From contig CM038232.1 of the NCBI GenBank assembly GCA_021442155.1, positions 64,895,555-64,959,554 of the forward strand: 64,000 nucleotides of DNA, written 5' to 3'. Below, one piece after another: positions 30,319-64,000 of this stretch. Under the pieces are notes generated by a model that searched no databases, was not told where the DNA came from, and worked only from the letters and a program-made list of their open reading frames with translations. This DNA comes from Cymbidium sinense (lineage: Eukaryota > Streptophyta > Magnoliopsida > Asparagales > Orchidaceae). The position numbers were made by a program, and so were the translations under genes. Every line of letters begins with the position of its first letter. Positions within the stretch are counted from its first letter, which is position 1.

Positions 30319-30324
30319 TATAAG
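30319..30324 (+). promoter_or_regulatory. TATA-like box of LTR1
   Basis: TTGTATAAGGGTAGAGCTC. The TATA-like core and following GTAGAGC are kept in LTR2 (52560, TATAAGAGTAGAGC), solo LTR B (complement of 46216-46226, CTATATAAGGG), solo LTR A (10081-10086) and fragment C (20104-20109). Conservation in five copies inside otherwise drifting sequence supports a promoter. Start of transcription would be about 30 bases downstream. Confidence 0.55.
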
Positions 30325-31227
30325 GGTAGAGCTCAGCTACCCACATTTCTTTTTGGGTTTGTGCGGTGGAGCCCGACCACAAAGGCATTTTCTTCTTTTG
30401 CTCTAGCTTTATAAAATTACTTGATGTTTGTTTAGCTTGTGCATTAAGATGACATGTTTTTCCTAGTTTTCTTCCTTGCTTTGATGAATGGCCTAAATGT
30501 GATTAAGCACTTAAGAAAAAATAAATTTTCTATCCAATTAATGAACTCAAAATAAAAATATTAACAACTCATAACCTCACCTAAAGCCTACATCATAAGT
30601 CAAGAAATAAAAGATTTAGCAACCCCTTAGCTAGATGTTGTATGTCTCACATCATGCATAAAAAGCATCTTGCTTCGCTCTTGCTTATGGAGGGCTTCCA
30701 CCTTTTCCAGAGAATATGACTTGACCTTTGAGAGCTATGGTGGAAACACACCTCCTTCTTGCTGATTTTGGCCCATAACCAATTTCTCATGCATTAGGCA
30801 TATAAATCACATAGCTTGTGTCAAAATAATTGTCCAAAAATAAAAATAAATTTAACAAAAATTTCATTAGATTTAAGTCATTATTCATGCCCTACATGAT
30901 CTACTTAGTCTTCCTTCTAAATAAGCAATAGCCTGGCTATCTTACAAAAGCATAAGACTTGCCTACATGTATTTAAAATTATAGAGGAGTTAGTTGGCAA
31001 CCACCCCCAAGCAGTTGTAAGTCTAACAGTCGGGTGGTTCATCCTCTCTTGTGGAGGTAAACCATATGCCCATGTTTTACCTTCAATTTTGGTTGTGCTT
31101 TGACCCTCACCAAAGCTCCCTAGATTTAGATTCTGAGATTGTTGTTTCCCTTTGTGGGCTATAAGTATAAATCATCACCTCTTAGGTATTTCCATAATCT
31201 TGTATCATTGAGTTGTTTCCCTTTGTG

Positions 31228-31245
31228 GGCGACTCCACTAGGGAT
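31228..31245 (+). other. Primer-binding site 1 (tRNA-Arg type)
   Basis: GGCGACTCCACTAGGGA, close to the TGGCGACTCCRCTGGGGA form I associate with Ogre/Tat elements primed by tRNA-Arg. In a normal element it would sit a few bases after the LTR end. Here the LTR tail is missing, so it abuts the deletion join. Confidence 0.65.
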
Positions 31246-31599
31246 GGTTCCTCTCTCCATCTTTGGTAAATGATCATTGTCTCCAAGTATATATAGTGTG
31301 TTTATATTTTATATGAACCCAAGACTATCTTTATTTTCCATTGGCACTTAGCTCATTTCATTTTTGAGTTAAGCTAGCCAACATCCTCTAGGTTTTAGGA
31401 CCTCACTGCATTTAGATCTTAAAACTCCTATTGGGTTCCCCAATAAATAAAAATAAAAAATTAATAAAATGAAATAAATAAAGACTTCCTGCTCTACTTG
31501 TGGTAAAGAGGGAATGACAACCACGTAGCATTGTAGTTGTGCCATCACCACCACCATCATAGCAGAGCATGGAGTTAGCAGCAGGGTGGCAGAGATAGT

Positions 31600-33560: not shown

Positions 33561-33737
33561 AGGTTGCCAAAAATAACTTGGGGAAAGGGGAGCACATCAA
33601 CAGTAGTAGCAGTCAATGCCAGTCCGGGATAGCCAAGTAGCGCAACCATCAACCGAGCCCAGCCTCCAGTCCATAGTTGCAGCTACTACTTTAGCACTTC
33701 TACTTCAGCTTTCTCTTCTTTTAATATACATCTTGTA

Positions 33738-34160
33738 TTGGTGGATGAGGGTATTAAATCCCTCACCCCACATACTTTACTAGATTTCTACTATACAACT
33801 CCTTCAAAATCCAATAAATCGAGGGATAAAGCTAGTTTGAAGTACATCTGTGTCATTTCTGATTGGTTGTCTAACTCTACTCTTTTAGAAAACTCTCCAA
33901 GTCTAAATAATAATTATAAAAACTCCAGTCTTTCTCTTTCTTATTCAGAGTTGGACTTTCCTTCTCTGAATAATATGGGTTCACCTCTTGAGATAGACTT
34001 GGAATCATCTAATTTTGAGGGTCCTATAGAAGAAGTTATCGGTGAGCCTGATGAGCAGGTAGAACCTTCCACTAACCTGCCACAAGAGATCACCAAAGTC
34101 AACTTCCATAGTGGCAAGGTTCTACCTCCTAGTGCAGCACCTCAAGATAAGGAAAAATAA
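33738..34160 (+). pseudogene. gag-protease linker ORF (acidic, serine-rich)
   Basis: An open stretch of 140 codons rich in S, N, D and E, with a run of S-L-S-Y-S-E-L-D-F-P-S-L-N-N and an acidic C-terminal half (EVIGEPDEQVEPS). I recognise no domain. It is homologous to 59870-60149 in internal region 2, where the array is truncated inside it. Its position between gag and protease matches the low-complexity linker of Tat-type polyproteins. Confidence 0.6.
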
Positions 34161-35386: not shown

Positions 35387-35959
35387 GGTAGCAATTAGGA
35401 ACCTTAGCTCTAACCTCACTTTCCTCTCAAAAAGTTGAAGGTTTAGTAGTTAAGGAAGCCCCTATGTCTTCCATTGATGTGAAGCCAAAGAGATTCCTAT
35501 TGGGATCATCATCCTCAAGTCTAGAAGCTGATGTAGAACTTGAGGATAATTCATTTAAAGAATTACTAGAATTTCCTTTTGATTGGTACTCACCTTATGT
35601 TTTTAATCTTACAAAAAAGGTTTAATTCCATATACATGATCTTAGCACAAGTCAGAATATGTAGAAATGTTATGGAACAACGAGGCAAGGATGCACAATC
35701 AAGATCAAGACTAGGATTCGGTACAGTGGGTCCAATCGATGATGATGATTACTGCTTAGTTGTCACCAATCATCTGAAGTTTGATAGGATCTTCTTAAAC
35801 AACACTAACTTTTATAAAAAAAGTGTGATTAGAAACTTCAGATGATCCAGATGATCTCTAAATCAAAGATGTACCACCACAATTCAAAAAAAAATCCATT
35901 CGATAATCGATAAGCTTAAAGAAATCAACCTCAGGATAAAAGAAAATCCACGCCTGACA

Positions 35960-37450
35960 TACATCAGTTCATTGCTAAATGAAGAAGAAATTAATGACTT
36001 AGTTAGGCTATTGATTGAGTTTAAGGACTATTTTGCATGGAGCTATGAAGAAATTTCTAGATTATCTCCTGACGTAGCAGTCCACAATCTAGCAATAGAC
36101 CCTGACGCTAACCATATCAAGCAAGCTCCTAGACACATGCGATCAGAAATTGAACAACAGATCATTTCTGAAGTCAAGAAACTGATCGATACTAGTTTTA
36201 TCAGGAAAGAAAAATATCCTACCTGGTTAGCCAGTTTTGTACTAGTTAAGAAAAAGAATATCCAAATTTGGATATGCGTCAATTTCAGGGACTTAAATTA
36301 GGCATGTCCTAAGGATGAGTTTCTTCTTCCTATACCAGAATTAATGGTGGACATCACCTCATCTCATGTAGTATTCCCCTGCATGGATGGGTCATCTGGC
36401 TACAACTAAATCAAGATGGCCCACAATCAAAATCTATTATTATAAGGTCATCTCATGAAAGAAACACTGCTTTTTGAACCCCGATTAGAATCTATTGTTA
36501 TAAGGTCATTCCTTTCGACCTTAAAAATACTGGTGCTACATACCAATAGGCCATGACACAGATCTTCAATGAACTCATTCATCATCAAGTTGAACGCTAT
36601 ATTGATGATCTAGTAGTCAAGAGCAAAGAAAAGGAAGACCATCTCTTTAACTTGAGAGTAGTTTTCAAATGATTAAGATAATTTAATCTCAAAATGAAAA
36701 TCCTGAAGTGTGCATTCGGAGTAGCTTCAGAGAAGTTCCTTGGTTTTATTGTCTGACACTGGAGAATAAAAATAGATCCAAAAAAGATCAAAGTTATCTT
36801 AGAAATGCAACCACCTAAAAGTTTAACTCAACTCAGATCTCTCTAAGGGTGGTTGGCATATCTAGGATAGTTTATCTTCAATCTATCAAAAAGATGCAAA
36901 CCATTTCAGCACTTATCAAAAAGGACATCAAGTTCAAGTGGGATGACAAGTGCTAACATGCCTTTGAAGATATCAAGCAGTATTTGGTGAAGCCACCAAT
37001 TCTAGTATCCCCTATCCCGGGCAGGCTACTTATCCTCTACACTGTTGCATTGGATGACTCCCTTAATGCTTTGTTGGCTCAAGCCAACGACAAAGGGAAA
37101 GAGAGTGCTCTCTACTACCTTAGCCATCATCTGATCCCTACTGAAGTGAACTACCCACCTATTGAGAAACATTGCCTAGCTTTAATCTCTGCATCCCAAA
37201 AGCTATGACACTATATGCTTTCTCACTAGGTGAACTTGAGTTCAAGAATCAATCCATTGTAGTATCTCATGACATGACCAATGTTATCTGGACGGTTGGC
37301 ACATTGGTCCATGATTCTCTCGTAGTTTGATATCACATTCGTACCCCTCTGTATGGTGAAAAGATAAGCACTAGCGAATTTCTTAACAACATACCCACTT
37401 TCTGCTGATTCTCTGCCTACCAAGGAGGATCATATCAGCTTATTGACTGT
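35960..37450 (+). pseudogene. pol: Reverse transcriptase and RNase H (pol) of internal region 1
   Basis: Copied the element RNA into DNA inside the particle. RT boxes in order: LIEFKDYFAWSYEEISRL (36010-36063), VAVHNLAIDPDANHIKQAPR (36077-36135), VKKLIDTSFIRKEKYPTWLA (36173-36230), WICVNFRDLN (36270-36300) and, past a stop, ACPKDEF..PIPELM. MDGSSGYN follows at about 36385, then the catalytic YIDDLVVKSKEKEDHL (36598-36645) with the two aspartates kept. Next are KCAFGVASEKFLGFIV (36707-36755), PPKSLTQLRSL and, after a frameshift, RNase H with ILYTVALDDSLNALLAQAND, SALYYLSHHLIPTEVNYPPI and EKHCLALISASQKL (37035-37207). Stops and frame changes are common. A small local repeat (AATCTATTATTATAAGGTCA then AATCTATTGTTATAAGGTCA, 36429 and 36487) adds extra bases before the catalytic box. 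No integrase or second RNase H follows. Confidence 0.87.
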
Positions 37451-40430: not shown

Positions 40431-43400
40431 TTGGCATTAGTAGAGTCACATTGCACTAAGCTCTTGATTCTTTCCACACCTCAAGTTTAGGGGCAAACCA
40501 TTTTTGTTACTGCTTGTGATTGTTCAGATGTTGTTGATCATCTTGGTCAACACAAATATGTGTGGTATGCCTTGTCAGTCACACCACCTATTGGGCGCCC
40601 TTTGTTGACCACACTTTTGGAGTGAGCTTTCAACCTCTCCATCTTAGACATAGGACTCCTCTCAGAAATTAAGAGTTCTTTAGTCTTAAGACACTTCTAG
40701 TGATTAGATGAACACTTAACCTAACCCTAAAGGCTTAGAAAAGTTAGCCACAAGAATAGATTATGCCTTAGGGTTGTTAGGAAAACTTGCCTACCCTATA
40801 GCTTGAACCAAATCCTTACTCTCTTCTTTCAAGTCAACCTTCAAATCTAAACAAACTTCAAATTCAAATAAACCTCAAATTCAAACCAATTCCAAATAAA
40901 AATTCAAATCAAATTCAAACTTAAATGATTCTTTTCTCAAATCATTCAAATAAAATTCCAACTTAAATGATTTTTCTCAAATCATTCAAATCAATTCCAA
41001 ATCAAAATTCAATTCAATTCCAAAAATCCTTCCTAAGTCACTTTCATTTCATTTAATGGACTTCAAATCAAATCAAATCACTTCAAACTCAAGAGATTTT
41101 CTCATAACCCATTTATATTCTCATTTATATTCACAAATAAAAATGAAATATAAATTCAAACAAAAAAAAACCAAATTCAAAACCCAAACCTAAATCTAAC
41201 CTAAATCCAACCATACCCTTTCAAGTCAAATTATTGAACTTAACCAAATCAAACTCAAATCAATCCAAACCTTTATATTTTGTCTTCAAACAATCAAATC
41301 CTCCAATCATAAGCCCAAATATAAATACAAACTTCAATCATAAAACCAAAACTAAATTCAAAACTCAAACCCATGTTCATCTTTTGAACTTGAAATTGTC
41401 AAATGAATTAAAACTCATTTGACCCCAAATCACTTGCAATTAGATTTATATTTCAATCATGAGTCCATATATGAGTTCAACCAAACTTGAATCAAGCCTT
41501 GATCAAGCCAATTCACCCATTTAGACTCACTTAAACCAAAGTGACCTAAAGCACCTTTTTGAGCCAAATTCTAATCCTGCCCAAATTGGATTGGACTAAG
41601 CCCATCTAAGCCTCACATTGTGAGCAACAATCATCTTAAGATGATCAATCACCCAAATTAGGTCAAACCAAGTCAAACCAAGCCTTTGACCGAGTCAACA
41701 CTTAACCCAAATGAAACCCAAACAGGCCAAAATTCACCATAGGCCAAATTGATTGAAACCATTGATCTGAACCAGTTCATGTTCAATGACTGAATATGAT
41801 CAAGCCATCATTTGAGCCAAACTTAACCCATTTTCCACTTGACCCAAGTTGACCCAAGTTGACCTAAAAAGTAAAATGTGTCAAATATTGATCTAAGCCA
41901 AATTGATTGCAACCAATGGGTCAAATTCATTCTAAATCACTTGTTACGTATTGCTCAAATCTTATTATCAACTAGACCCAACCTAGCCTAATTGACCATG
42001 AACCCAACTTGACTAAAAGGTCAAATCAACTTGAAATTAAACCAAGATTGAAACTAAAAACATTTCAAATGATCAACCAAGCCTAAACCAACCATGACCT
42101 AACCCAATTAGGTCAAATGGGTCAAATTGGTCAACTTGACCCATTTGACCTAAGTGAACTCAAATGAACCAAACCAAATAAAAAACAAATTGAACCAAAC
42201 CAATGATACCAAAATATTTCAAATGATCATTTGAACTAGTCCTAACCCATGGTTTGACCCAATTTGACCAATTCATCAACTTGGCCCAAGTTGACCCATT
42301 TTGACCTAAATGGGTCAACATGAGCCAAATCATATCAAATAAACTCCAAATTCATTGAAAATTAGCACAACCCATTTTTCAATCATTCCAAATATGCCCA
42401 AATTAAAATCAAAGCCAAATGACCATTTTACCCCTAGGTCAAAGGGTAACTTATGATCAAATTCACTTGGAATTTGATCATATTCCAACTCAAGACCACT
42501 TGCATCCTCTAGTGGACCATTTGGACACCAAGAGGTGGTGCACATGACCCAATGGATTTGGGTTAGCCAATTCTAACCCAAAGCAAAATTGACCACTCCA
42601 TTCAAATTTCTCCATATGAATCACCTCCCACACTCATTTTAGCACATGTGCACCCACACTCCCACTCTACCAAAATTGAACCACATGGCACTCTAACAAC
42701 CAAAATAATCTATTCCATCTCATCAATTTTGATCAAAATGGAAAGGAGGCTCACGACCATCCGATCCAAGTAGGGGGAGATGTACTCCCCCTCATTCCAT
42801 TCTAATTCAAGACTCTAGCATTCGATTGAGCTCAAAGGATCAAAGGCAAGCATCCACATGCTTCCCCAAGGTTTCCCAAGCTGATTCCAATTTCCCTTTC
42901 TCAATTTTTTCTAAGCCAAAAATTGGGGAGGTGAGGGATATTTCAAACTCACTCAATTCTCAACCAGAGTTCAATTCCTCTTGCAAGCACCATCAAGGGA
43001 CTAAGTCGAGCTCATCCAAAGCTTTTCCCAAGTCTCCAAGTCACGGAAGGGGAGTTGATCGGCCAAGCTATTGAAGTAAGCTTTGGTCAATTGGAAGATC
43101 CACTGCAAATTGAACCTTCAAACCTTCAACAGGGCTTCATCTCCATTAGACGAAGCTACCTTAATGGTTGGAAGTGCCGGTGATAGCCTCCGGTGAGGTA
43201 TGCCTCAAAACCAAGCTTATGTTAGAAAATCATTGGTCCTTTATGAAGGGAAGTGTAATCCCATTGAATTTCCATCGTTGGATGTGCTTCTCCTTGCTCC
43301 TTGATGGTGTGGGTTGAATCCCTGCCCAATTCGAGCTCAAGTGAGCTCGGATCAAGCCATGGAGGATGGATGGTCTCCATCTCCAGGCAGGGCGGGGATG

Positions 43401-44916
43401 AATCATGGATCCCTCCATATTTTGGATGGGGTCTGATTAAAATGCATAGATCCGCTGATTATTCACTTTGAAATCACAGGTTTAATCTTGACCATCTGAT
43501 CTTTGATCGGATCCAAGAAAATGTGTGCGTGGTGCGACATATGATTTGACAACTTAAATAACCAATCTAATTGCCACATGGAAAGTGCACGTCACATTGT
43601 GGTGTGGAGTTAATTAATTAGGCTATCTAATTACTAATATCATTGAAACTTCATAAATACATAATTTAATGTAAAAATTTAGAAAATGCAAACTCAACTT
43701 CATTTTAAAGATAATTCAAGGAGAATCAAAATTATTTCTAATTGATTTTAAATAGTATTTTCCTTAATTAGGTTTAATTAAAATCTAATAACGTTACTCC
43801 TAATCATTTCATTAATTAATTCCAAACTTAAACATATTTAGGGGATGACTTCTATTTTCCTAATTTTCTTGGAATTTATTAATGAGTTAATTAGGAAATA
43901 AATTAATGAATCCCTAATTATCCCTTAATGAAATTAAGATAATTAAGCATGTGAACAATGGTTTAATCACTTAATTGAAATAATTAAACATTGTTTAAGT
44001 GAATAGGAGGTTTTTGGAATGGCTTCGGGGTATTTTCCCTAAGTTATTCCCTAAACCCCTTTCCTTTCTTAATCTAAACATAATTAAGGATTAATCTACT
44101 AATTATCTTCTTAATTAATTTAATCAAACTTTCAAAATCAATCTGAACTTAATCAATCTCCTTTTGGGTAGATCCTTAGGTGTTCAATAACCTAAGTGGC
44201 CTTTAAGAAAATCATTTCCAACTCATATGTGTGGGAAGGTTATGAAAGTACTTAATTAAACCCTTTAGCTTAATTAATCAATAATTATGAGCCAATTGCA
44301 TTAGACCCCTTTCTTTCATAGGTGCATTACTGATTTAAATTCAATGTGGTTGCATATCATATGTTGGCTCACAATTATTTGAATAATTATGTTAAAGTGG
44401 TGTAGGTAAGGGGTAATTAATGGACTTAATTCACACCTTAACCTAAATAAAATATAAAATTAACTTAATTATTCTAAAAATTAAACTAAATCAACAACAC
44501 ATAGGGAAATGGGTTAGGACCAGCAAACTCTTCTCACTTTTCCTAAATTAGATTCAAATCTAAAAATAAAGCAAAAATATTCTTAAGATATTTTGATTCA
44601 CTTTAAATAATCTTATTTCATAGGATTGTCTTTAAGAATTAATTAAGATGAATGAAATCATATGCTTACATCATTTTATCTCTTTCCAAGCATGTTAAAT
44701 GTTGTTTTCCATGTGAACTCATGCATTCATATTGTGGTGTTTATTTTTGAGAGGTGAAACACATAGATCTTAGGGGTACTTATTAAATTGATCGGGTACC
44801 ACATTAAGAATGATGTACTACCTTGAAAGATAGAAATCACCACCCTATAATGGACCTAATCACCTAATAAGGACTCCTAAGGCATGATGGGTCTTCGAAT
44901 ATACCAGAGATCTTTC

Positions 44917-45030
44917 TCCTACTTTACATGGAAAAGTAAAGTAGGATTTATTTTAAGCCAGGTTCATTAAGTTTCTTATGGAGGCAAGCCCCCATAGTTA
45001 ATTACATCCTAAGAAATGAAATTCCTTAGG
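44917..45030 (-). promoter_or_regulatory. Three terminal hairpins of solo LTR B
   Basis: 44917-44946: TCCTACTTTAC / GTAAAGTAGGA, 11 perfect pairs, loop ATGGAAAA. 44977-44996: TATGGAGGC / GCCCCCATA with one mismatch, loop AA. 45008-45030: CCTAAGAAAT / ATTCCTTAGG with one mismatch. They are the same three positions as in LTR2 and LTR D, with altered stem bases. Confidence 0.6.
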
Positions 45031-46215
45031 AATACTCTCGATTAAAGTAGGAATTAAAGTCTCAAAAGATTTCAAGGCTAAGACTATCAAAGGATTAGCT
45101 ATTTTAGAAAATCAAATGGGATAGATCAAGGTGAAGACTTATTTTTGGAATCCAAAGGGAGAAAGTAGGAAATGCTCATGAAACTAGGAAGCCTAGTGAG
45201 CATTCCAATATATCTTATAATGGGCTTTATATATTTAAAATTGAGGAGAGTTAATTGTTTGAGTTGACATTTTATTAGAACACTAGGACTTATAATCCCA
45301 CAACATAAGATTGCAAAAATGCCTAAGAGGTGAGGATTTATGCTTGTAGCCCGAAGGAAATAGCTACCTCAGATCCTAAGCTAGGGAGCTTTGGTACAAA
45401 CCACAAGCATGACCTAAATCTAAGCGAAAGGTGGACATAATTGTCTACCTCCACAAGAGAGGATAGGCCATCCAATTGTTGGACTTACAATCACCTGGAG
45501 TGGTCTCCAACTAACAACTCCTATGCTTTGAATTCATGTAGGCAAGTCATATGCTTCTGCAAGATGGCTAGGCTGTTATTTATTTAGAAAGGAGACTAAG
45601 TCCTTAAACTCACTCTCTAAGAGATTAGAGCATGAGTGATATGAATTCATGACTTAATCTAATGCAAATTTTATCAAATTTATTTGATTCTTTTGGACTC
45701 TTTATTTTGACACAGGCTATGGGATTTTGTATGCCTAAATGCATGAGAACTTGATTATGGGCTAAATCAAGAGAGAAAGGGTGTTCTTCCATCAAAGTCT
45801 CTCATAGGTTAAGCTTTTGTTCTCCGACAGATGGAAGCCCCTCTTAACAAGAGTGGAAGAATATGACATGCATGATATTATACATTCATTCATCCAGCTA
45901 AGGGATTGCTAAAAATTTTATTATCTTGATTTAATTTTTAGGCTTTTATGTGAGGTTATGAATTATTTTAAAATTTTAATTATGAGTTGTTAATTGGGAT
46001 AGAAAAATTAATTTCATCTTAAGAGCCGGTTGCATCCAAGCCACACATTCAAATATCAACCATGAAGAAACTAGGAAAGTATGCAATTCTAGTGCGCAAT
46101 CTAAACATAACATTAAACAATTTTATAGACTACCATAAAAGAATAAAAGGCCAGTGCGGTCGGGTTTCTCCATACACCCCAAAAAGGGAAAAAAAGATGG
46201 GTAGCCAAGCTCTAC

Positions 46216-46226
46216 CCTTATATAGC
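46216..46226 (-). promoter_or_regulatory. TATA-like box of solo LTR B
   Basis: On the minus strand CTATATAAGGGTAGAGC, the best TATA box of the family in this window. It lies about 1.48 kb from the LTR 3' end at 44733, which puts a probable R-U5 segment of about 1.45 kb in the RNA and leaves a U3 of about 4.6 kb. Confidence 0.55.
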
Positions 46227-49200
46227 CTAGATTACAAAATTAATACATGCTATGGGGGTCTTCTTTTCTTCATTTTTTTCTCTTCTTTTTTATTTGAATT
46301 GCTCCAAACATCACAGACACCCAGGACTAAGCCTTACAACTCATCTAATCCCCATAACACTAATCATAATTCATAATGTAAAATTACATTGAAAATAGGA
46401 AAAGTAAATCTAGCTACACCTACAAAACAAATGTTAGCTAAACACACCATGCAACCCAATTAGTTATATGAATAATTTGGACTTAGCACCCCACACATGG
46501 GTAACCAAGCCCACATGTCCTAATGTGGGTTATGCTTAGGGGCTAAGCAACCTGCACAATAAATGCATTTATATTTTTATTATAGCGACCCTTAAGCACA
46601 ACCCCCTATAGAAAATATGATTAGGCTAATCACAGCCTACCATCCAGTCTACGAAGCATACACCCTAACATCCAGTCTAAAATATTACATCATAAAATAA
46701 AACACAACATCATACATACATCATTGGCCTAACTAATTCTAGGGTGGTGACTTAGTACTCTAGTGTGTGAAAAGAAGGATTATGTAGCAAGACTTTACTA
46801 GGCTTCTTTAGTTTAAGTTTTACTTTGGAGTTTGAATTTGTTTAAATTTTACCTTTGGGTGATTTTAATTTAAATTATTTAATGATTTATTTTTCATTTT
46901 TATTTCACTTTTATTTGGTTAAAATGATGTTAGGTTTTCAAGAATGAAGAGTAGAATGAATTCCATTTGTAGACAAACTCACCCTATTCTACATCCTAAC
47001 TTAAAGAGTTTAACTAAGGTCCTTAAGTATCTTAATTAGCCCATTTGAATTTGTGTAATTTATTTGATTTAGATTTTTGAATTTGAATTTGTTTAATCTT
47101 CATGTATTTGATTAATTAATTTTGGATTAAATATGTTGATTTAATTACATCATGATAATTCAATATCCTTAATATCAAATGATGTTTAAGTTTATTTAAA
47201 TACATGTGTTTTATTTTATTGATTAATTTTAAATTAAATGTGTTGATTTAATTAAATCTTTATAATTCAATATCCTTAATCTCTAATGAAGTTTAAGTTT
47301 ATTTAAATCCATGTGTTTTGATTGATTAATTTTAGATTAGATGTTTTGGTTTAATTAAATATTGATAGTTCAATATCCTTTTAAATTAATATCTAATTCT
47401 TTTCTTTGATTATAGTTATGTGATTTAATTTTATGTTTATTTGATTTAATCAAGGTTCATTTATTTGTAGTTTGATTGGATTAGATTAATTGAGATTTTA
47501 TTTTGATTTTAATTGAGTTTGATTCTTTATAATTAGAATTTTATTTTTAATCTCATCCATTTGTCATGTTTATCAAAGTTTGATTTGTATTTTGATTTCA
47601 TACAATGGATAGTTAATTAGTTTATCTTATTTAAGTAGGTTGAATGAGATTTGATTACATATTAAATTGATGAGTCTTTCTTTAATTTGATTTGATTAGC
47701 TTTATTGATTTTGGGTTTGCTTAGGTTCAATGTGATTATTAGTTTAATTAAGAAGTGTGTTTAGGTTTATTATTAGATTAAATAATGATTTGTTTAATTT
47801 TTAATTTGGTTTCATATTTGTTTAAGTTTGATGATGTAATTAATGACTTAATAATTTAGGTTTAATTTAGGATTTGATTGGCATTTAATTGCACTTTAAT
47901 TATGTTTAAATTTATGTTTGATTAAGCTTAAGTTTAATATGATTAATTTGATTAACTTAATTATCTTATTTAAGAGGTGTGATCAATTTTTGAATTAAAT
48001 AAAGATTTGTTTAATTTTTAATTTGATTTCATATTTATTTAGATTAATGATGTAATTAATGACTTAATGATTTAAGTTTAAATTAGGATTGCACACTTGA
48101 ATTGCATGTGAGTGATTTAATTAAGTTAAGTGTTACACTTATGTTTGATTTGATTAAAGGATTATTATTTTTACCATCATTGTTATTAAGTGAATTAACT
48201 GTTTATTTTATTTCAATTAAGTTTGATTATTTATGATTAGAGTTTTATTTGATTTGATTCATTTATTATGTTTGCTTAATTTCATTAACATGTTTGGTTT
48301 AGTTATTATGTTGAAATATTTATTGGTTGAGTAACTCTCTTATTCCAAATGGATTGATTTAGATATTAAATTTGTTAAGTTCACTTTAGCTTCATTTGGT
48401 TTGGTTTGGTTTGATTAATTTTAAGTGATTATGATGTATTAGATTTATAATTAATTTATCTTTTTAGTTTACTTAATGATTAATTAGTTTCAATTTATTT
48501 ATATTCATTAAGGAGTTACATATGATTAAGATTCCATGCTTAGTGTAGGTTTAGTTATACTAGTTTGACCCATGTTAAACTTTCCTAGATTTGTTTAATT
48601 TTAAGTTTGATTTAAGATTTAATCATTTAATTGAGTTTTATTAACTTAAATAGGTTTAATCATATTTAATTTAATTTCCTCTGAAGATTACATAATATTT
48701 TTTTGATTTGAGGTTTGATTAATGATTGCTTAAGTGTTATTTCATTTATTTTTTTAATTTTATTTATTATTTAGATTATTATGAATTTCTTTTAATTAAT
48801 TCCTTAATTTGTTAAATTTTAACCCTAAATATTTATTGTAGGTTCACTAAGCTTCAGAAGATAATATTATTATTATTATTAGGATCTTAGATGTTAACTG
48901 AAATGATTTAAGCCATTTTGAAGATTTTTTGTAAATTTCTGGATTTTTATTTGATTTATTTTATTAAAATAGATAATATGAATTTCAAATTTTAATTTCT
49001 TCCAATCTAGAACTCTTTTTTACTTGAGAATTTTACCATAGGTGTGTTTTAACTTTAATATTAACTCTTGAAAATTTCAACTCAATCCGACATATATTTT
49101 TAGAGTAATTAATAAAACTTTATTTTCACTAGAACATAAATTAAGCTCAAACCATTCAGTGGAATTTGGAAATTTTTGGTTCTTCGGATTGCTTCTAGAA

Positions 49201-52200
49201 AGACAAATCCAATGAGCTTATTTGTAACTTTTCATTATGTATTTTATTTTCTATGAATTTTTAAAGTTTTGGATAATTTACTTAATTTTTAAAAGCAGGA
49301 AATAGGCCATTTTCATGCTTAACCAATCGACGCAAAGCTAGAAATGTGGCCACATGCATAGGTGCCATGTGATGTGCGAGCGATCGTGTGATTGGCCCAC
49401 GATCTGGATGGGAGCAAAGAAATTAGTGCGGGATCGATCCATGTAATTTGGACCCCGCGATAACAAATTAGAAATGCATAGTTGCGGATCTGAACCACGC
49501 GATCACGTGATCTGAGCCATCCAATCTCAAGGCGGGATCGAACGACTGGCAGGAAAATCTGGCGGAATATTGTTCATCCGAAGGGATTTTGTATTTTTTT
49601 GATGAATTTTCATCCGATTGGGCTCATTTCAACTACAATTTTCACTAAAAAACTTTTTAATTCGCATGGGGATGATATAAGATGAAAATGCAAGGGTAAT
49701 ATAAGAAATTTCTTAAGATTGAGTAAAATCATTACAAATAATAGATCTATGGTTTGATTTGATGAAATTACCTCACCGAGGATGGTTTCAGGTGGTGGTG
49801 ATGATCTGAGCATGCTCTTGAGCGAAGAAGAAGCTTTGAAATGAGTCTAGACCTCCGCCTTCACTTTAGAATGATGTATCTTCGATTCTTTCCATTTTCT
49901 CACCAAAATCAACCTAGGGTGATCAACAATCATGGTGGAAGGTTTTGGTGAGCTTGGTTCAATCCAACTTGGGTTGGATTGGAAGTTGGCTCAAATGGGT
50001 CCTTTAGGTTACTTTGGGTCAAGTGGACCTAAGTGGGTTAATTGGTTTGGTTTTAGTTTGATTCGAGTTTAGTTGAACTTATATATGAGCCCTAGATTGA
50101 AATATAAATTCAATAGCAATCAATTTGGAGTCCAATAAGTTTTGGCTCAATTGAAAGTTTCAAGTCAAAAGGGTTAAGTTAGGCTTGACTTGGGTTGACT
50201 TGAATTTGGTTTAATGATTATAGGTTTCAGTTATATTTGGGTAGATAATTGAATGAATGATTGATTCAAGAGAAAATCCATTGGTTTCGAGTTGATTTGG
50301 ATAGGATTTGGTTAAGTTTAAGAAATTGGCTTAAAGGGTTTAAATTGGATTTGGTCTTGTCCATTTGAAATTTTATTTCATTTATATTTTTAAATATAAA
50401 TGAAGGAATAATTCATTAATAAGGAAATCAATTGAATTTTATTTGATTTAAAGGGGGTTTTGGCTAAGCTTATAAAGGTGGTTCATATGGCTTAGGAAGG
50501 GTCTTAGGATTTGAATTTGATTTTGGGTTTCAATCATTTGGAGTCAAATTTGAAACTAGATTTAGAATTTGAATTTGAATTTAAGGTTTGGTTTGAGATT
50601 TGAATCTAGGTTTGATTTGAGAAGGTGTATATGGATTGGGTTTAGGCTATAGGGTAGGTGATTTCCTTAAGTCCTAAGGCATGGCCTAATCCTATGATTA
50701 ACCCTTCTAAGTCTCTAGGCTTAGGTTAAGTGTTCACCTAATCACTAGATGTGTCCTATGACTAAGGAAATCTTAGTGTCTAGAAGATTTCTAAGTCTAA
50801 GAGGATGGGGTTGAGAGCTCACTCCAAAAGTGAGGTCAACACATACCTTTTAAGAAATCAAATTAAAATGAAATGTTTCCTTTATGTCAAATTGCATGTT
50901 TTGGCTAAAGTAAGAATATGAATGGCTATTATCACTACAAAATCAAAAATTATTTTCAAAATATATGAATCTAAGATCATAAATGAAAGTATGCTACTTA
51001 TAAATACTTATAAGCTTGCATGTGATTATAGCATAAAATGTGTTATGGGATTTCCTTCTCTTTTCTTAACTTGGGATTTGTATAAGTGTATAGTTCATTT
51101 GAAAAGAACATAACACTTGCTTAAATTCATTCCCTATGCACTCCCATGTCATGAATTAAGAAGGATCTTAATATTACATATATAAACCAAATCAAACAAA
51201 CAAATAAAATCTTTTGCATGATTCTTCATCCATTCATTTGCTTTTGTACATGCACATGTATTTAAGAAAAGTGGTATATTAAGACATCCAGGGGTTGGGA
51301 GGCTTTAAGTAGCCCCAAGTAGGTCTTGTACCTTACACCCTAGTGTAGAAAATAATGCATACCAGTTATGTCTTTCATACATGTAAATGTGCATTTGATT
51401 AATAGATAAGAGAATCCCTCTTTTCTACTTAAACAAAAGCATGCATTCATGAAACATCCAAATTTTTTAAAACAACATCTCTTAGCATTCATCATCATTA
51501 AGGTGTGCTAAGATTTTGCATTTGTATGTATAGCTATGCTTAGGATACATTCATATGCATGGTATACATGTTGAAAAGAAATAAAGGGTTGTGTGTTATG
51601 TGATAGTAATTCACCTTAATTAATCCTAAAATGCCTTTCTTATTGAATAGGTTCATTTAGAGCAAATCTAAACTTAGGATTCATTAAAACACATAATGAA
51701 ACATTCCCTAAAGAAAAATCATTAATGAATCTACATTAGAAATTACTTAAGGTAGGGATGAAAGAGAAGTTTTCTTCTCTTTATAACTTTTAGTATTTAA
51801 ATTTAGGTTCTTTCAAACCAAATCAAATCAGTAAATAAAATTAACCAAATTAACTAAACCACTTAAAATGAAGTCACCCTCTAAGTTGAATCATTTCATA
51901 CTTAGAAAACTCCAACCTTAAAGCCTAGTTAAGACATACCACAAGCCTTAAATGGCACACATTAGGCTATCATCATTTCTAGATCTATGTTAGGGCGGTG
52001 CATGGTTTGATGCCTAATTTTATTTTGTGATGTAATATTTTAGACTGGATGTTAGGGGTATATGTGCGTTGAATTGATATGATGATTTTAGTCTAATTAT
52101 TATCTTCTATGGGATTGTGCTTAAGGGGACTATAATAAAATATAAATGCTTTTGCTATGGTTGCTTATACCCCAAGAATAATCCAAAATAGGCGGTGGAC

Positions 52201-52559
52201 TAGATTACCCATGTGTGGTGCTAAGTCCAATTTATTCAAATACATGCTTGGGATGTGTGGTATGTTTAGCTAATCTCTATTTTTAGGTTTTAATTAGATT
52301 TACTTTTCCTATTTTCATGTAATTTTTGCAATTAGGATTTGGAATGAATGTTATGGAGAACTGGAGGTGAACATTGGTCATAAAACCAAGTTTTATGCAC
52401 CATGTGAAGCCTTGGAGCCAACCACATTCCAACCAACCAAAATGAAGGAAAGAAAGAAAGAAATCAAACATGAAGAAAGAAGAAATGAAGAATGAAGAAT
52501 GAAGACCCCATAACATAAATTCCTTCTAAATTGTAATTATTCATTTGTAATTCGGGTTG

Positions 52560-52565
52560 TATAAG
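52560..52565 (+). promoter_or_regulatory. TATA-like box of LTR2
   Basis: GGGTTGTATAAGAGTAGAGC, the same position as in LTR1 and 1.52 kb before the LTR2 end. Confidence 0.5.
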
Positions 52566-53734
52566 AGTAGAGCTCAGCTACCCACATTTCTTTTTTTGGG
52601 TTTGTGTGGTGGAGCCTGACCACAAAGGTCTTTTATTCTTTTGCGTTAGCTTTATGAAATTATTTGATGTTTGTTTAGCTTGTGCATTAAGATGGCATAT
52701 TTTCCTAGTTTCTTCCTTGCTTTGATGAATGGCCTGCATGATTAGGCTCTTAAGAAAAAATAAATTTTTTATCCATATAATCAACTCAAAATTGAAAAAT
52801 TAACTAACTCATAACCTCACCTAAAGCCTAGGCCATAAATCAAGAAATAAAGATTTAGCAACCCTTTGGATGTTGTATGTCTCACATCATGCATAAAAGC
52901 ATCGTACTTCACACTTACTTATGGAGGGCTTCCACCTTTGCCAAAGAATATGGCTTGACCTTTGAGAGCCATGGTGGAAACACACCTCCTTCTTGCTTAT
53001 TTTGTCCCATAACCAATTTCTCATGCATTAGGCATATGAATCCCATAGCCCATGTCAAAATAATTGTCCAGAAATAAAAATAAACTTAACAAAAATTTGC
53101 ATTAGATTTAAGTCATTATTCATGCCCTACATGATATAGTCTCTTAGGGAGTGTGTTTAAGGACCTTGTCTTCTTTCTAAATAAGAAACATCCTAGCTAT
53201 CTTGAAAAATCATAAGACTTGTCTACATGTATTTAAAATCATAGGAGTTAGTTGGGTACCACCGAGGCTTGTAAGTTCAACAGTCAGGTGGTTCATCCTC
53301 TCTTGTGGAGGTAAACCATATGCCCATTTTTTTCTTAAATTTAGGTCGTGCTTTGGCCCTTGCCAAAGCTCCCTAGATTTAGATTTTGAGGTTGTTATTT
53401 CCCTTTGCAGGCAACAAACATAAATCCTCACCTCTTAGATATTTCTATAATCTTGTATCATAGAATTGTAAGTCCTAGATTTCTAATAAAAATTCAATTC
53501 AAATAAATAATTCTCTTCAAATTCAAAAATATAAAGCCTAACCATATGATAGTTTGGGATGCTCGTTAGGTTTCCTAGCATCGTGAGCATCCTATACTTA
53601 TCTCCCTTTGATTTTGATAATAACTCCCTCCTTTTGATCAATCCCATTTGATCTTCCAAAAATAACCAATTGATTGATAGTCCTATCTTTGAAATCTATG
53701 GAGACAATGATCATTTACCTTAATTGAGAATATT

Positions 53735-53847
53735 CTTAAGGAATCTCATTCCTTAAGATGTAATTAACTATGGTGGCTTTCCTCCATAGGGAACTTAACG
53801 AACCCAATTTAAAATAAATCTTGCTTAACTTTTTCATATAAAGTAAG
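53735..53847 (+). promoter_or_regulatory. Three terminal hairpins of LTR2
   Basis: 53735-53757: CTTAAGGAAT / ATTCCTTAAG, 10 perfect pairs with a 3-base CTC loop. 53768-53789: CTATGGTGG / CCTCCATAG with one mismatch, loop CTTT. About 53824-53847: CTTAACTTT / AAAGTAAG with one bulge. They lie downstream of the TATA-like site and 235-350 bases before the LTR end, so in R or U5. They could act in polyadenylation, packaging or translation; the sequence does not decide. Confidence 0.6.
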
Positions 53848-54089
53848 GGAAGAATCTTTGGTACATTCAAAGACCCATTGTCCTTAGGAGTCCTTATTAG
53901 GTGATTAGGTCCATTGTAGGATGGTGACTTTTGTCTCTTGGGATAGTACATCATTCATCAATATCATACCCAATCACCCTAATAAGAACATCTGTGAATC
54001 TACGTGGTGTCCAACAAAGAGTTTTATTTTTGTTTTCATTTAATTCATTTTAGATGAAGATAAAAAATAATAAACACTACAGATTTTTC

Positions 54090-54107
54090 TAGCGACTTCG
54101 CTGGAGA
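54090..54107 (+). other. Primer-binding site 2 (tRNA-Arg type)
   Basis: TAGCGACTTCGCTGGAGA starts 9 bases after the LTR2 end, where a PBS is expected. It is a diverged form of the TGGCGACTCCRCTGGGGA type. Its presence after LTR2 shows that an internal region starts here again. Confidence 0.65.
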
Positions 54108-54568
54108 TGGTTCCTCTCTCCATCTTTGGTAAATGATCATTGTCTCCAAGTATCGATAGTGGGTTTATTTTTTATAGGAACCCAAGACTATCTTTCTTTT
54201 CCATTGGCACTTAGCTCATTTCATTCTTGCGCTAAGCTAGCCAACATCCTCTAGGTTCTAGGACCTCACTCCATGTAGGTCTTAAAACCCTATTAGGTTC
54301 CCCAATAGGTGAAAATAAAAATTTAATAAAAAGAAATAACAAAAGACTTCTTCCTTACCATTTTATGATAAGGAAAGGTTCATTCCAAAAGTAAAATAAA
54401 TAAATCCTTTATAAAAAACATTACCTTCCAAAAAGCATTTTTTTTCAAAAAGTCCACATAATAAAATATTTTGCACCTCATCTAACAATCTTCAAGATTG
54501 TTACATTTAGGATCATTTCAAAAATCAAAATCAACAGTCATATTTTCAAAAAGCACAAATGAACATCC

Positions 54569-54588
54569 TCATTCAATTTATTGAATGA
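54569..54588. repeat. Perfect 9-bp hairpin before the leader repeats
   Basis: TCATTCAAT / ATTGAATGA with a 2-base TT loop. It resembles the later array hairpins with the loop removed, because the TTCAAT..ATTGAA core recurs at 54987-55015. Confidence 0.6.
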
Positions 54589-54594
54589 AGATTT

Positions 54595-54960
54595 CATTTT
54601 CAAATAAAAATCAACAATCATCTTTTCAAAAACAAAATCAACAATCATCTTTTCAAATCAAAATCAACAATCCTCTTTTCAAAAAAAAAATAATCATCTT
54701 TTCAAATCAAAATCAACAATCATCTTTTTCAAAAATGAAATCAACAATCATCTTTTCAAATAAAGAATCAACAATCATCTTTTCAAAAATAAAAATCAAC
54801 AATCATCTTTTAAAAAAATCAACAATCATCTTTTTCAAAATAAAATCAACAATCATCTTTTTCATAAAAAAATAAAAATAAAATCAATAATCATCTTTTC
54901 AAAAATAAAATCAACAAACATTTTTTCAAAAACAAAATCAAAAATCACCTTTTCAAAAAG
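54595..54960 (+). repeat. 25-28 bp tandem repeat in the leader, about 13 units
   Basis: Repeated AAAATCAACAATCATCTTTTC separated by variable A-runs. A frame stays open through it (54585-54875) but encodes only low-complexity S/Q/N/I/F sequence. It is absent from internal region 1 through deletion. Confidence 0.9.
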
Positions 54961-54986
54961 CATAATATTTTGAAAATGAACATCCT

Positions 54987-56550
54987 CTTTCAATATACCC
55001 AAACTTATTGAAAGGAGATTTCTTTTCCAAATAAAATCAAATCATAACATTGAAATTCCATTTCAACATATTCTACATATGTTGAAGTTGGAATTTCTGT
55101 CTTTTAAAAAAAATACAAACTTGAAGATAAGCCTCTCCATTCAAGATATCCAAATATACTGGATGGAGGCTTTATTTCTCAAATAAAATTACACCATTTG
55201 AAATTCCACTCAACACATCCCACATGTGTTATGTTAGAATTTCTTTCTTTTCAAAATGAAATAAATCACACAATCAAAACTTCATCTTTGAAAAATAAAA
55301 CTTAATTGACTAAAAAAAATGCTAAGTAAAGATCCCACTTTCCAAAATCAAAACATCAAAACTAAAAATACATTTGAACTTTATTTAGCATACACAAATT
55401 TGTTAAGTAAAGTTCTCATTTTTCAAAAATCAAAACATAAAAAAAGCCGAAAACACATTTTTGATTCTCCATTTATCATACCCAAATTTGCTAAGTGAAG
55501 ATCCACTTTTGAAAATCAAAACACATTTTGGATTCTTCATTTAGCATACCCAAATTTGCTAAGTGAAGATCCTCCTTTCAAAATCAAAAATCACAAATCA
55601 GAGCACATTTGAATTTCCTTTATTTAGCATACCTAAATTTGCTAAGTAAAGAATCATCTTTTCAAAAAATTAAAACAAAACACATTTGGATTTCCTTTAT
55701 TTAGCATACCTAAATTTGCTAAGTAAAGAATCATCTTTTCAAAAAATCAAAACAAAACACATTTGGATTTCCTTTATTTAGCATACCTAAATTTGCTAAG
55801 TAAAGAATCCTCTTTTCAAAAAAATCAAAACAAAACACATTTGGATTTCTTTTATTTAGCATACCTAAATTTGCTAAGTAAAGAATCCTCTTTTCAAAAA
55901 AAAAAAATCAAAACAAAACACATTTGGATTTCTTTTATCTAGCATACTTAAATTTACTAAGTAAAGAATCCTCTTTTCAAAAAAAATAAAAACAAAATCT
56001 ATTAGGATTCTTTATTTAGCATACCTAAATTTGCTAAGTAAAGATCCTCTTTTCAAAATCACCAAACACAAAAAACATTAGGATTCTTTATTTAGCATAC
56101 CTAAATTTGTTAAGTAAAGATCCTCTTTTCAAAAAACAACAAAACACTTGGACTTTATTTAGCATACTCAAATTTGCTAAGTAAAGATTCCACTTTCAAA
56201 TTCACACATAATTCACAAACAAGCAAACAAAAGAAGAAATTTTTTTTCAAACAACTCATTTAGCATACTCAAATTTTCTAAGTAAGCAATTCCAAATAAA
56301 ATCAAATGACCCGTTACTTTAACATATTCAAATTTGTTAAATGAATGGTCCTCAAACACAAAAATCAAATTCAAATATGAACCCATGGAAGCATCAATCT
56401 CTTCAAAATATTTGAACCCATTTTCAACATACATAAATTTGTTGAAAATGGATCTTAAATTCAAATAATCTCTCCTCCAATTCTAAACTCAAAAATCTCT
56501 CTCCAAATTCAAAGAGCCCCACTTAACATATCCAAATTATTGAGTGTGGG
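54987..56550 (+). repeat. Array of about 19 stem-loops with conserved loop
   Basis: Successive hairpins at 54987-55015, 55052-55097, 55129-55172, 55200-55243, 55377-55414, 55466-55502, 55530-55572, 55618-55651, 55695-55728, 55772-55805, 55849-55883, 55932-55966, 56005-56047, 56081-56123, 56153-56186, 56253-56287, 56308-56350, 56418-56451 and 56518-56550. The usual form is stem-CA, loop TA(C/T)NCAAAT, TG-stem. Stems differ: CTTTATTTAGCA / TGCTAAGTAAAG (eight near-identical copies), CCATTTTCAACA / TGTTGAAAATGG, CTTTCAATA / TATTGAAAG, GATTCTTCATTTAGCA / TGCTAAGTGAAGATC. Two units (55052 and 55200) share a GAAATTCC..GAATTTC stem with another loop. 55466 and 56253 pair poorly. A-rich spacers with TTTTCAAAA separate the units. 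The array lies between the PBS and gag, so in the 5' leader of the RNA. Confidence 0.8.
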
Positions 56551-56639
56551 TTCAAATTCTAAAAACAAATTAAAGCAAGAAATCTGATTCATACTTGTTT
56601 TCAAAATTGCAGTTCAACCCAGTTTGATCAATTTCTAGT

Positions 56640-57725
56640 TAAGTTAATCCAGTTCTAAATGGCACCAAAGTATGTGTTTACTTTTCTTTTGGGATGGATT
56701 TGGCCTTATCAGCCGACCTCCCTAGTCTAACTTGCCCACCTTATTCATTTTGCCATGGTTTTGGGATCACTTGTGAGGGACCATCCCTCACAACCATTAG
56801 AGGAGTATAATGACGGCAGCCTATCATTCACGTAGAGATGTTGTCAGACTCATAGTTTCCCTCACTAAAGAGGAAGGTTGTGGCAGTTCTGGTAGCAATA
56901 GCAGTTACAACGCCAGTGCATTTAGTGGTTCCCCTTTCTGCCCCTAGCACCCACTCATTGGCTCCTTAAGGGAAGATTACCCTATCTTAGGGATAGTCTC
57001 CCCACCGAGGTAGGGTCTAGTTCTCGTCTGCTCCTCTAGTAGGACCAGCACCCGATCAGATCGACATCATGGCGCATAAGTAAGGAGCTAGAGGCAGTTT
57101 CTCAATCTGCAGCTGAGGAGTTTCCCAGGATAGTCTCTCCTCTTATCATACAGAGAATAAGTTTCACCCCCTCTGTGTATCTGATGGAGAGGAAGATATT
57201 AGGAGGATCTCAATTTTGCCTCCACCTGTAGTTCACTTTGAGGCTCCTACTAGAGATAGGAGAAGGTTGTATGCCGATCTTAGATCGGTTCACATTGTAG
57301 TGGGGCTTCTGGATGTCAAAGTCCGAGGCTGGGTTGATTTATGTTTATCATCCCTCATAGCGTGGGAGCACCAGAGAGAGGGCGGAGGCCGGGTATGAGT
57401 ACAAGTTACTAGCCAAGAGTGGTGGAGGTATAGCGGTGCCGCTCGACCCTATGGAATTTCCGTGCACTACCCACGGTCATATTGTGACATTGTGATGGTA
57501 CTACCCATCATAGAAGAGGAGCTCATCTACAGAGAGAGTTGGTGGTGACTCTGCCACATTGCTCTACTCCACGGCCACCATCTCTAGTGCAAGTTCCATT
57601 ATCCACTATTCTAGCAAAAGCCATGAAGGAAGTATCTGGGGAAAAGAGAGCCCCACTTGTGATCTGGCTATGGACAAGAGATCCGATTCCATCACACCAC
57701 CGAGGCGGTGAGCTCTCCTGCTCAA
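56640..57725 (+). pseudogene. Coding-like region ahead of gag in internal region 2
   Basis: Base composition shifts from AT-rich leader to balanced, gene-like sequence. A start ATGGCACCAAAGTATG (56659) opens MAPKYVFTFLLGWIW, soon stopped. Later open pieces include 57216-57398, beginning MPPPVVHFEAPTRDRRRLY, and 57539-57769. I recognise no domain. It could be an N-terminal gag extension or the extra ORF that Ogre-type elements carry upstream of gag; which one cannot be decided here. Internal region 1 lacks it: 31488 joins directly to sequence matching about 57720. Confidence 0.5.
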
Positions 57726-57729
57726 CCTC

Positions 57730-60149
57730 CTACTCCAATTATGGTAAAGAGGGAATGATGACCATGTAGCATTGTAGTTGTACCATCACCACCACAACCA
57801 TAATAGATCATGGAGTTAGCAACAGCCGAGGGAGGAGGAGACAGTACCACTATTCCCATGGCCATAGATCCTCCTAGGAGTACTACTCCACCCGGATCTA
57901 GTGGAGTAAGAGCATCTTTCTGATGTAGCCCTCAGTGTTAGCTCTCTCTAGTAGCGGCATAGGTTAGATGTCTTTCTATTCATGAGTGATCCCACCACGG
58001 TCGACCATGATTTTGTGTATGCAGTTGGGTTCCCACGATGATATTATAGCAGAGTATCTAGTGGAGAAGAAGGAGATCCTAGGATATGACTGGTCTGACT
58101 TAGAGGAGGAGAAGGTTAGTTTTGATCCTAATGAAGATGATTTGAGGATTCAATAGGAGTACATATTATTGATACCAGGAGTTCTCTCCTTCATGATCAG
58201 TAGAATTTGGAAGGTGATACAGCTGAGTAGGATAATACAGCCTACTTGACCTAACATCACCTTCAACAACTTAAATAAAAGGATGAATAAATTGATAGGA
58301 TGGGGAAGAGGCTTGAAGATTTGCTAGCAGTAGTTTTGGCACTTCAGAACCAAGCCATAGTAGTGCATCCTACTATTGCAGAAATCGATCAGCCTGAGTT
58401 GTTTTATGTTTTGGATCAAGCCAAGACTTCACCTTCAGTAGAGCAGGGTAGCACCAGCTTGTATAGGAAGGTAGTAGATAGCACCTCTGTATAAGAAAAG
58501 GACATTAAACTCATGATTGAATAGTAAGTGAGAGAAGCGATGCAAGCACGAGGAGGATCATCATTCTAAGGGTAGACCAGGAATTTGATGCCATCCAATA
58601 TCTAAGGTTTTGTGCCACTTCTTTCAAGAGCTTGATGGTAGTGGAAACTCCACGACATAGCACACTTCAAGGCTATTGCAATCTTTGGTGGCGTGATGCA
58701 TTATTATTCCATCTTTTTATTAGTAGCTTGGTAGCATAGCCTTTGATTGGTACGTTGAACTCCCCAATAGTTCAGTGTAGACTTTTGTTGTGTTAGAGCA
58801 ATTCTTCATTAAAAGGTTTGCTAGAGCTCAGCAAAGGGTGACTGTAGGCGATCTTGTTGTGGCTTAACAACACCCTGGTGAGTCCCTCATTGATTATATT
58901 CTCAGATAGAGCAATTTGAGTATGAAATGTGAACCACAACTGTCTGAATAGCATGCCATTGAAATTCTACTAAAGAATATTCATGGCGTAGTTTTCATGC
59001 TTAAAGGTTTTACCATCAAGACATTTGAGAAGCTAATCAACAAGGTGACTAGCTTACAAGGAGAAGCCAAACAGTTGCCATTTCCAGATCAATCAACAAA
59101 GCCAAAGTCACAGAAAGCTTATGAGAAGAAGCTAGGGTGTAACAGTGGACAAGGGGAAAAGCAGGCCATTAGAGACCTCAAGCTCCACGCATCACTTCCA
59201 CCTCCTCTACTTGCTGGGCCATCCCTAGCCCACATCAACCTCCATGGCCTTCACGCCTCCTCCCTGCCACATTCATAGCTACACATACCACCCGTAGCTA
59301 CCATCCACCTATTCTTTTGGATAAACTAAACAAACCTTATTCTTTTAAGAGGAGGTAGTTAGAAAAATCTTTAAGAATCTCTTAAAAAAAAAGACTTTCA
59401 ACTAAGCCTAAGACGGAGGAAGTGGGCGAGCAATGATCCTAACTTTTCCCCTACCCATGTTAGCCATGTTTTGGAGGATTGCTTTACATTCAAGGATTGG
59501 CATGAGCATAGCTACAAGACAGGTGCCATAGTTATCCCAAATGAATACCTTAGAACAACCATCCAGTTCCATTAGGGTAATCCTTGGGGATACGTGCGAT
59601 CCTCTCAAAACTAAAGAAGGTTGGGATATCTTCTTATCCCAAACCTCTAAAAAGATTGTTTTAAAAATCAAGAAACTTTCCTTGCAGGTGCTTGAGGTAG
59701 CTCAAACCTCAAACATCAAGGAAGGTTTACAAGTTTCCAAAGACAACTTAGGAAAATGAGGAGCTTCAGCTAGCCTATGCAGGGGATAGCCAAGTAGCAC
59801 AACCATCGATCGAAGACCTCCAGTCCACTTGTAGCCTACTACTTCTAGCTCTTCATCTAGTAAACATCTTCTATCGGTGGATGAGAGCATCAAATCACTC
59901 ACCCACTTACTTTACTAGATTTATACTATGTATTCCTTCAAAAACCAAGAAATTGAGGAATAACGTTAGTTTGAATTACATCTGTCACTCGATGGATTGT
60001 CTAACTCTACCTTTAGAAAATCTCCAAGTCTAAATAATAATTATAATAACTCTGATCTTCCTCTTTCTGATTTAGAGTTGAACTTTCTTTCTCTGAATAA
60101 TATGGTTCACCTCTTGAGATAGAATTGGAATCATCTTATTCTAAGGGTT
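57730..60149 (+). pseudogene. gag: gag of internal region 2, 3'-truncated
   Basis: Homologous to 31500-34022. Recognisable: a serine/proline-rich N-terminus (57850-58030), RLEDLLAVVLALQNQA (58308-58355), FIKRFARAQQRVTVGDLVVA (58807-58866), SLIDYILR and MKCEPQLSE (58880-58950), LLKNIHG then FMLKGFTIKTFEKLINK (58965-59050). A C-terminal piece follows, with SSSIRVILGDTCDPLKTKEG (59555-59615). Stops and single-base losses are more frequent than in internal region 1. Homology ends at about 60149, right after the ATAGAATTGGAATCATCT stretch matching 33994-34011. No protease, RT or 3' LTR follows. Confidence 0.8.
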
Positions 60150-63685: not shown

Positions 63686-64000
63686 ATGGTGTTTATTTTT
63701 GGTTTGATGTGTTTATGTTTGAGGGAACACCAAACAGATTTGAAGATATACGTATTAAGGTGATAAGGTAATACATTAAGGAATAGTGTACTATCTCAAG
63801 AGATATAAGTCACTACCCTATAATGGACCTAATCACCTAATAAGGATCCCTAAAGCATGATGGGTCTTCGAATATACCAGAGATTTTTTTCCTACTTTAC
63901 ATGGAAAAGTAAAGCAAGGTTTATTTAAAGGTTCATTAAGTTCCCTATGGAGGCAAGCCTCCATAGTCAATTACATCTTAAGAAAGTTAATCCCTTAAGA
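63686..64000 (-). mobile_element. LTR D, 3' end of a fifth copy, runs off the window
   Basis: TATGGTGTTTATTTTTGG at 63686 matches the terminus of solo LTR B (TGTGGTGTTTATTTTTGA). The next 300 bases follow solo LTR B closely, for example ACCCTATAATGGACCTAATC and TGATGGGTCTTCGAATATAC. On the minus strand this is the LTR 3' end, so the rest of the LTR, or of a full element, lies beyond 64000. Hairpins: 63891-63919, 63945-63966 (perfect CTATGGAGGC / GCCTCCATAG, loop AA) and 63977-63999. Confidence 0.85.

Follow-up and report, generated by a model that had tools for sequence, protein, structure and literature searches.

The window, as we term the whole 64,000-nucleotide stretch of Cymbidium sinense DNA that was analysed, consists of decayed LTR retrotransposons in series, resolved by self-comparison into a first LTR (about 24448-31228), internal region 1 (31229-about 40602), a second LTR (40603..54081, forward strand, aligned with 24448-31216) and, directly 3' of the latter, internal region 2, which carries the array described below. 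The second LTR measures approximately 7.4 kb once a nested reverse LTR copy (about 44779-50842) is subtracted, and its presumed ends place TGTTG as its first bases and CTACA as its last. The nested copy apparently lacks an internal region, and the end of another LTR of the same family, likewise reverse-oriented, occupies the window edge (63744-64000). A primer-binding-site-like stretch lies at 54090..54106 (forward strand), related to a stretch in internal region 1 from 31229, and a decayed gag-side region of internal region 2 (57725..60148, forward strand) is homologous to 31484-34022 at 81% identity. No stop-to-stop frame longer than 175 residues is left in the window. The Pfam match to gag (PF03732) sits in a piece of internal region 1 (32438-32821), as do elsewhere in that region the RNase H pieces (PF17919 and PF17917); Pfam searches with pieces of 57725..60148 itself, with the piece 35855-36298 and with nine further coding pieces gave no match. 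By its long direct repeats, primer-binding-site-like stretch and gag and RNase H matches, the host element is an LTR retrotransposon, probably of the Ty3/gypsy superfamily. Its primer-binding site may resemble that of Tat elements. The available text of one source describes an extra RNase H domain in the OTA/Tat lineage of plant Ty3/gypsy elements (PMC6317226).

Internal region 2 contains, in the interval from its primer-binding site to gag (54565-56551), 20 two-armed inverted repeats and one half unit, all on the forward strand. The initial annotation had recognized this array as about 19 stem-loops; the count is corrected here to 20 two-armed units and the half unit (55320), and the four stem pairs it quoted are all present in the sequence. 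Grouping by stem sequence, in classes of our own (A to G), places 12 units in class A, two each in B and C, and one each in D, E, F and G, in agreement with the approximately seven different stems reported originally. The first hairpin, u01 (class B, 54565..54592), has lost its loop core and falls within a separate tandem array of 27-bp units (54512..54966, forward strand), which shows no excess folding and by eye resembles the spacers of the hairpin array; all remaining hairpins lie 3' of it. These begin with u02 (class B, 54984..55017), u03 (class C, divergent loop, 55052..55097), u04 (class D, 55129..55172, its loop core modelled as partly paired) and u05 (class C, imperfect and with a divergent loop, 55200..55243), followed by the half unit u06 (55320..55331), in which direct reading finds only the 3' arm of class A. 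The class A hairpins then run from u07 (55376..55415, 15 bp) through u08 (55467..55500, partly decayed), u09 (55534..55569), u10 (55618..55651), u11 (55695..55728), u12 (55772..55805), u13 (55850..55883), u14 (55933..55966, partly decayed), u15 (56009..56044), u16 (56085..56120) and u17 (56153..56186) to the decayed u18 (56254..56287). The array closes with u19 (class E, 56313..56346), u20 (class F, 12 perfect pairs, 56418..56451) and u21 (class G, one bulge, 56515..56551). From u07 to u21, neighbouring loops are spaced 59-105 nt apart.

A single type of loop is shared across these differing stems, as had been proposed. The consensus given at the time, TAYNCAAAT, fits only 8 of the 20 units as written, however, and is better rendered TAYNYAAAY, which describes 17 of 20 (the exceptions are u01, u03 and u05). 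The closing CA/TG pair, also noted earlier, is found in 15 of 20 units as the arms are cut here, and in u04 does not adjoin the loop core. A longer core, CATAYNYAAAT, is common to the class A units, u19, u20 and u21, in which the stems differ and pairing is kept. Eight central units had been regarded as recent tandem copies; their tandem origin is borne out, with a 77-bp period at 55513-56200, while their number was too low, 12 of the 20 units being variants of the CTTTATTTAGCA stem. Between classes, the arms still share an identity of 0.58-0.59 over 12 positions, which makes common descent of the stem classes likely. Similarity of spacers among class representatives is weak (mean z of 1.2 for 3' spacers and 0.3 for 5' spacers).

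Folding well beyond that of dinucleotide-shuffled controls, the check proposed for the leader, was obtained for 54972-55260 (z -7.9, 200 shuffles), for 55320-56230 (z -22.5, from only 20 shuffles) and for 56231-56570 (z -4.7, 100 shuffles), but not for 54505-54971, the segment that includes u01 (z -1.5, with 10 of 100 shuffles at least equal). In 54561-56560, 13 hairpins score at least 22, whereas 60 dinucleotide shuffles averaged 0.7 such hairpins and never gave more than 4. When hairpins were counted in 2-kb bins, 14001-16000, which contains another repeat, yielded 10 and 54001-56000 yielded 12. Hairpin number alone is thus not unique in the window, and it is the shared loop, together with stems that differ yet remain paired, that distinguishes the array. 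Mean local pairing probabilities are predicted to be 0.88 in arms, 0.11 in loops and 0.34 in linkers; 5'-arm pairing is predicted to be weakest in u18, u08 and u14, and the loop region of u04 to be half paired. In the minimum-energy structure of 55320-56230, arms of different units also pair with each other.

The arms of the stems have changed in matched pairs. With one hairpin chosen for each of the seven classes, the native arrangement pairs 76 of 84 positions, the sole best result among 5040 reassignments of 3' arms (mean 52.4). Since these representatives had been chosen by hand, the test was repeated with each of the 48 sets that take a single unit from every class, giving native totals of 70-76 pairs that were the sole best in 44; in the remaining four sets, which include the decayed u18, the native pairing is equalled or surpassed by one other reassignment. 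Comparison of the representatives over 252 cells shows 98 that have changed on both sides and 23 that have changed on a single side, pairing being intact in both units in either case, and 43 more differences in which one unit or both are unpaired. When the neutral decay of a single hairpin was simulated, the 5341 runs (of 24000) that were matched for arm identity yielded no more than 68 pairs. The native pairing being the best at 76 of 84, and neutral decay yielding at most 68, we conclude that the arms changed together.

Covariation was also assessed in a set of 13 hairpins of equal length (12 distinct rows), from which u01, u03, u04, u05 and u21 were omitted for unequal loops, and u11 and u12 as identical to u10. 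In this set 93.1% of cells are paired, compared with 82.9% in shuffles, and 8 of 12 pairs have changed on both sides, compared with 3.4 (0 of 500 shuffles), these shuffles, as in all our covariation tests, taking no account of the relatedness of units. Five less related hairpins, two of them from class A, gave a similar result (8 two-sided pairs versus 3.3; 0 of 500 shuffles). For four of the five covariation measures, none of 500 shuffles attained the native value; the fifth, the number of pair types, was not above shuffles, 153 of 500 attaining it with the 13-hairpin set and 84 of 500 with the five-hairpin set. Sliding the partner by 1-3 columns in the 13-hairpin set reduced paired cells from 93% to 40-50%, a control that favours structure by construction. 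Within class A, many one-sided changes break pairs; the sole clear two-sided change, in which two units have C-G in place of T-A at position 9 (one also having C-G at position 11), is accompanied by wobbles and breaks. This pattern fits duplication followed by neutral decay.

The initial annotation had read the paired changes as the mark of selection on RNA folding, or on a protein that recognizes loop and stem together, and had proposed a packaging or Gag-binding array or an IRES-like leader. The paired change itself is upheld by the reassignment, shuffle and decay comparisons; its attribution to selection does not follow, since template switching also pairs changes, according to the available text of PMC8794818, and the loops are not significantly slower to change than the arms. 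Between classes, loop identity is 0.70-0.78, a difference from the arms that falls short of significance in each of three row sets (p 0.20, 0.08 and 0.10). Nor is the folding strand fixed by comparing G-U with A-C cells, the counts of which are about equal (25 and 22, respectively); the sense strand is the more stable in 14 of 20 units, 10 of these being class A copies. The G content offers a further asymmetry. It is low in both arrays, at 2.0% for the 27-bp units and 8.2% for the hairpins, and the Gs of the hairpin array are concentrated in 3' arms (67 of 240 bases, versus 13 of 240 in 5' arms and 5.5% in linkers), such that G persists mainly where it is paired. The Gs of 3' arms may either be protected by pairing or reflect an origin of the 3' arms as copies of G-poor 5' arms.

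Relatives of the array were sought within and beyond the window. Internal region 1 aligns with internal region 2 as far as 54350 and again from 57725, and so is without both the array and the sequence that leads from it to the conserved part of gag. A covariance model built from 13 units found no match outside the array at E <0.19, and none was listed beside the LTR end at 63744-64000. In Rfam, 54000-57800 gave three matches with E no higher than 1 (0.29-0.56), none of them near its gathering score. Three patterns run against viral_contigs recovered no other copy of the array, and a hairpin pattern found no match in genome_contigs; protein-piece scans of both collections, and a plasmid scan, found no relative. 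A looser pattern against viral_contigs retrieved eight stretches (L001-L008) that we attribute to chance, each having one or two loop motifs and no blastn match to the leader. A protein search with the gag piece yielded one protein (P0001), labelled Klebsiella pneumoniae and lying on a 540-base contig, which covers 72% of the gag piece at 73% identity and probably represents contamination of that assembly. In the literature searched, by titles and the opening parts of abstracts with few subscription journals included, no such hairpin array was described.

To our knowledge, little has been established about the packaging signals used by plant LTR retrotransposons. The main text of a 2025 review, in the version available, uses "packag" 10 times, and "hairpin", "stem-loop" and "dimeriz" not at all (PMC12786077). 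The array had been considered unfamiliar from plant LTR retrotransposons; only its hairpin form is unusual, because retrotransposon UTRs with tandem repeats have been described before, as the accessible text of PMC7168160 records. The dispersed packaging signals of RNA viruses offer a close parallel, in that several differing stem-loops display one short recognition motif, although these are scattered over viral genomes and tied to coat protein, as outlined in the portions of PMC6281560 at hand, whereas the present hairpins are in tandem within one leader. One diagnostic feature of such signals, a single loop motif on differing stems, is found here, with TAYNYAAAY in 17 of 20 loops and arms that covary, though without significantly higher conservation of loops than of arms; binding by a coat or Gag protein that promotes assembly would be the other.

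The array of paired-arm hairpins is real, and our best guess as to its role, offered tentatively, is packaging or RNA binding, with mutational maintenance as its main rival. Retroviral packaging signals likewise sit between the primer site and gag, and the position of the array there supports a packaging reading. Retroviral leaders, however, are known for a few distinct hairpins, unlike the approximately 20 in tandem here. The packaging reading is further favoured by the paired change of the arms, by the predicted contrast of paired arms and open loops, and by Gs that persist mainly in paired positions; telling against it are the one-sided breaks within class A, loop conservation not significantly above that of the arms, the near-equal G-U and A-C counts, the number of pair types and the lack of the whole segment in internal region 1. 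The array would possibly represent a multivalent set of hairpins in genomic RNA, through which Gag or some other RNA-binding protein meets one and the same loop. In the leader of the full-length RNA of the element there would be tandem sense-strand hairpins, each with a stem of about 12-20 positions and an accessible loop, mostly UAYNYAAAY, separated by G-poor linkers; stem sequences would drift freely provided that the arms pair. A protein reading the loop on its stem, most plausibly the Gag of the element, would land on the array, and its landing might lead to the choice of full-length RNA for packaging. Under that scheme, we infer that the array is read as RNA and not as DNA, that its pairing is under selection, that the loop is recognized and that the partner is Gag. 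A more elaborate version, which we consider unlikely, envisions a tandem, expandable packaging array of some 20 interchangeable hairpins, the copy number of which tunes packaging strength while stems drift under selection for pairing alone.

The main rival dispenses with function: template switching at hairpins, during DNA replication or reverse transcription, would re-copy one arm from the other, so that stems drift in pairs while a tandem minisatellite grows and shrinks in a leader that tolerates it. In the available text of PMC8794818, a single template switch can produce both a perfect stem and paired changes, so that arms change together as they do here; that source concerns DNA replication, and the extension to reverse transcription is our own. 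The gathering of Gs in 3' arms, as if these were copied from G-poor 5' arms, is in line with this model, loops are not significantly more conserved than arms, and tandem copying is evident in the array. Against it, all 12 class A units retain a T-G wobble at stem position 7, with further G-U pairs elsewhere, and such wobbles are difficult to reconcile with re-copying, which should yield Watson-Crick pairs. The model of PMC8794818, moreover, would not by itself supply a shared loop on differing stems, as found in this array, in which TAYNYAAAY is kept in 17 of 20 loops (though 12 of the 17 are class A). Because the loop, class A and strand tests do not show selection, we regard template switching as a serious rival, if a somewhat unlikely one.

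Three other readings appear less probable than a packaging or RNA-binding array. A translation leader, in which hairpins and unstructured A/C/U-rich linkers drive internal ribosome entry or shunting to gag, would suit a 2.6-kb leader whose 20 ATGs and stable hairpins make a poor path for plain scanning, and the structured leader of a plant pararetrovirus supports a ribosome shunt. A highly structured leader in such a virus also serves RNA export, according to the available text of PMC12786077. The ATG count nevertheless lies within the range of shuffles (mean 25.4, range 15-37), with no depletion of upstream ATGs, and nothing ties the hairpins to ribosomes, leaving this reading improbable. Slightly less probable still is a double-stranded DNA array for a DNA-binding protein, acting as an enhancer or insulator, as the array of Su(Hw) sites does in the Drosophila gypsy 5'UTR. 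Retrotransposon UTR repeats do hold arrays of protein-binding sites, the gypsy insulator comprising 12 degenerate sites and resembling the present array as a repeated array in a retrotransposon 5'UTR (PMC7168160, in the text available); these are DNA sites for which that text describes no paired stem changes, whereas the hairpin array has them, and a double-stranded site would conserve letters rather than pairing. That the leader is an intron, the array marking unspliced genomic RNA, seems very improbable: an acceptor-like TTGCAG at 56607-56612 lies shortly 5' of an ATG at 56659, but the acceptor at 56612 ranks sixth in 54000-57500 by a rough splice matrix, and among the ten best donors of 53000-57500 only that at 54275 (6.7) falls between the primer site and 56650.

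Many covarying hairpins in one molecule would provide the replicate evidence that normally requires many species, and would make it straightforward to test whether stems are maintained by selection on RNA or by template switching.

Several other features of the window are recorded here in their own right. A perfect 21-nt complementarity (53699-53719 with 54128-54148) joins the LTR end to the leader and brackets the primer-binding site; the region containing it, 53560-54520, folds with a z of -7.9 (20 shuffles). The leader arm of this putative duplex (20 nt tested) is identical at 31265-31284 in internal region 1, and the reverse LTR copy differs at the site of the complementarity. Inside the LTR, 42105-42328 contains long inverted repeats of GGTCAA/TTGACC words with arms of 21-24 nt. 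Elsewhere, two adjoining direct copies of approximately 680 bp, 88.6% identical and rich in inverted repeats, occupy 13989-15324, a piece of MULE transposase (PF10551) lies at 15851-16264 on the reverse strand, and a piece of reverse transcriptase (PF00078) lies at 4022-4450 on the forward strand.
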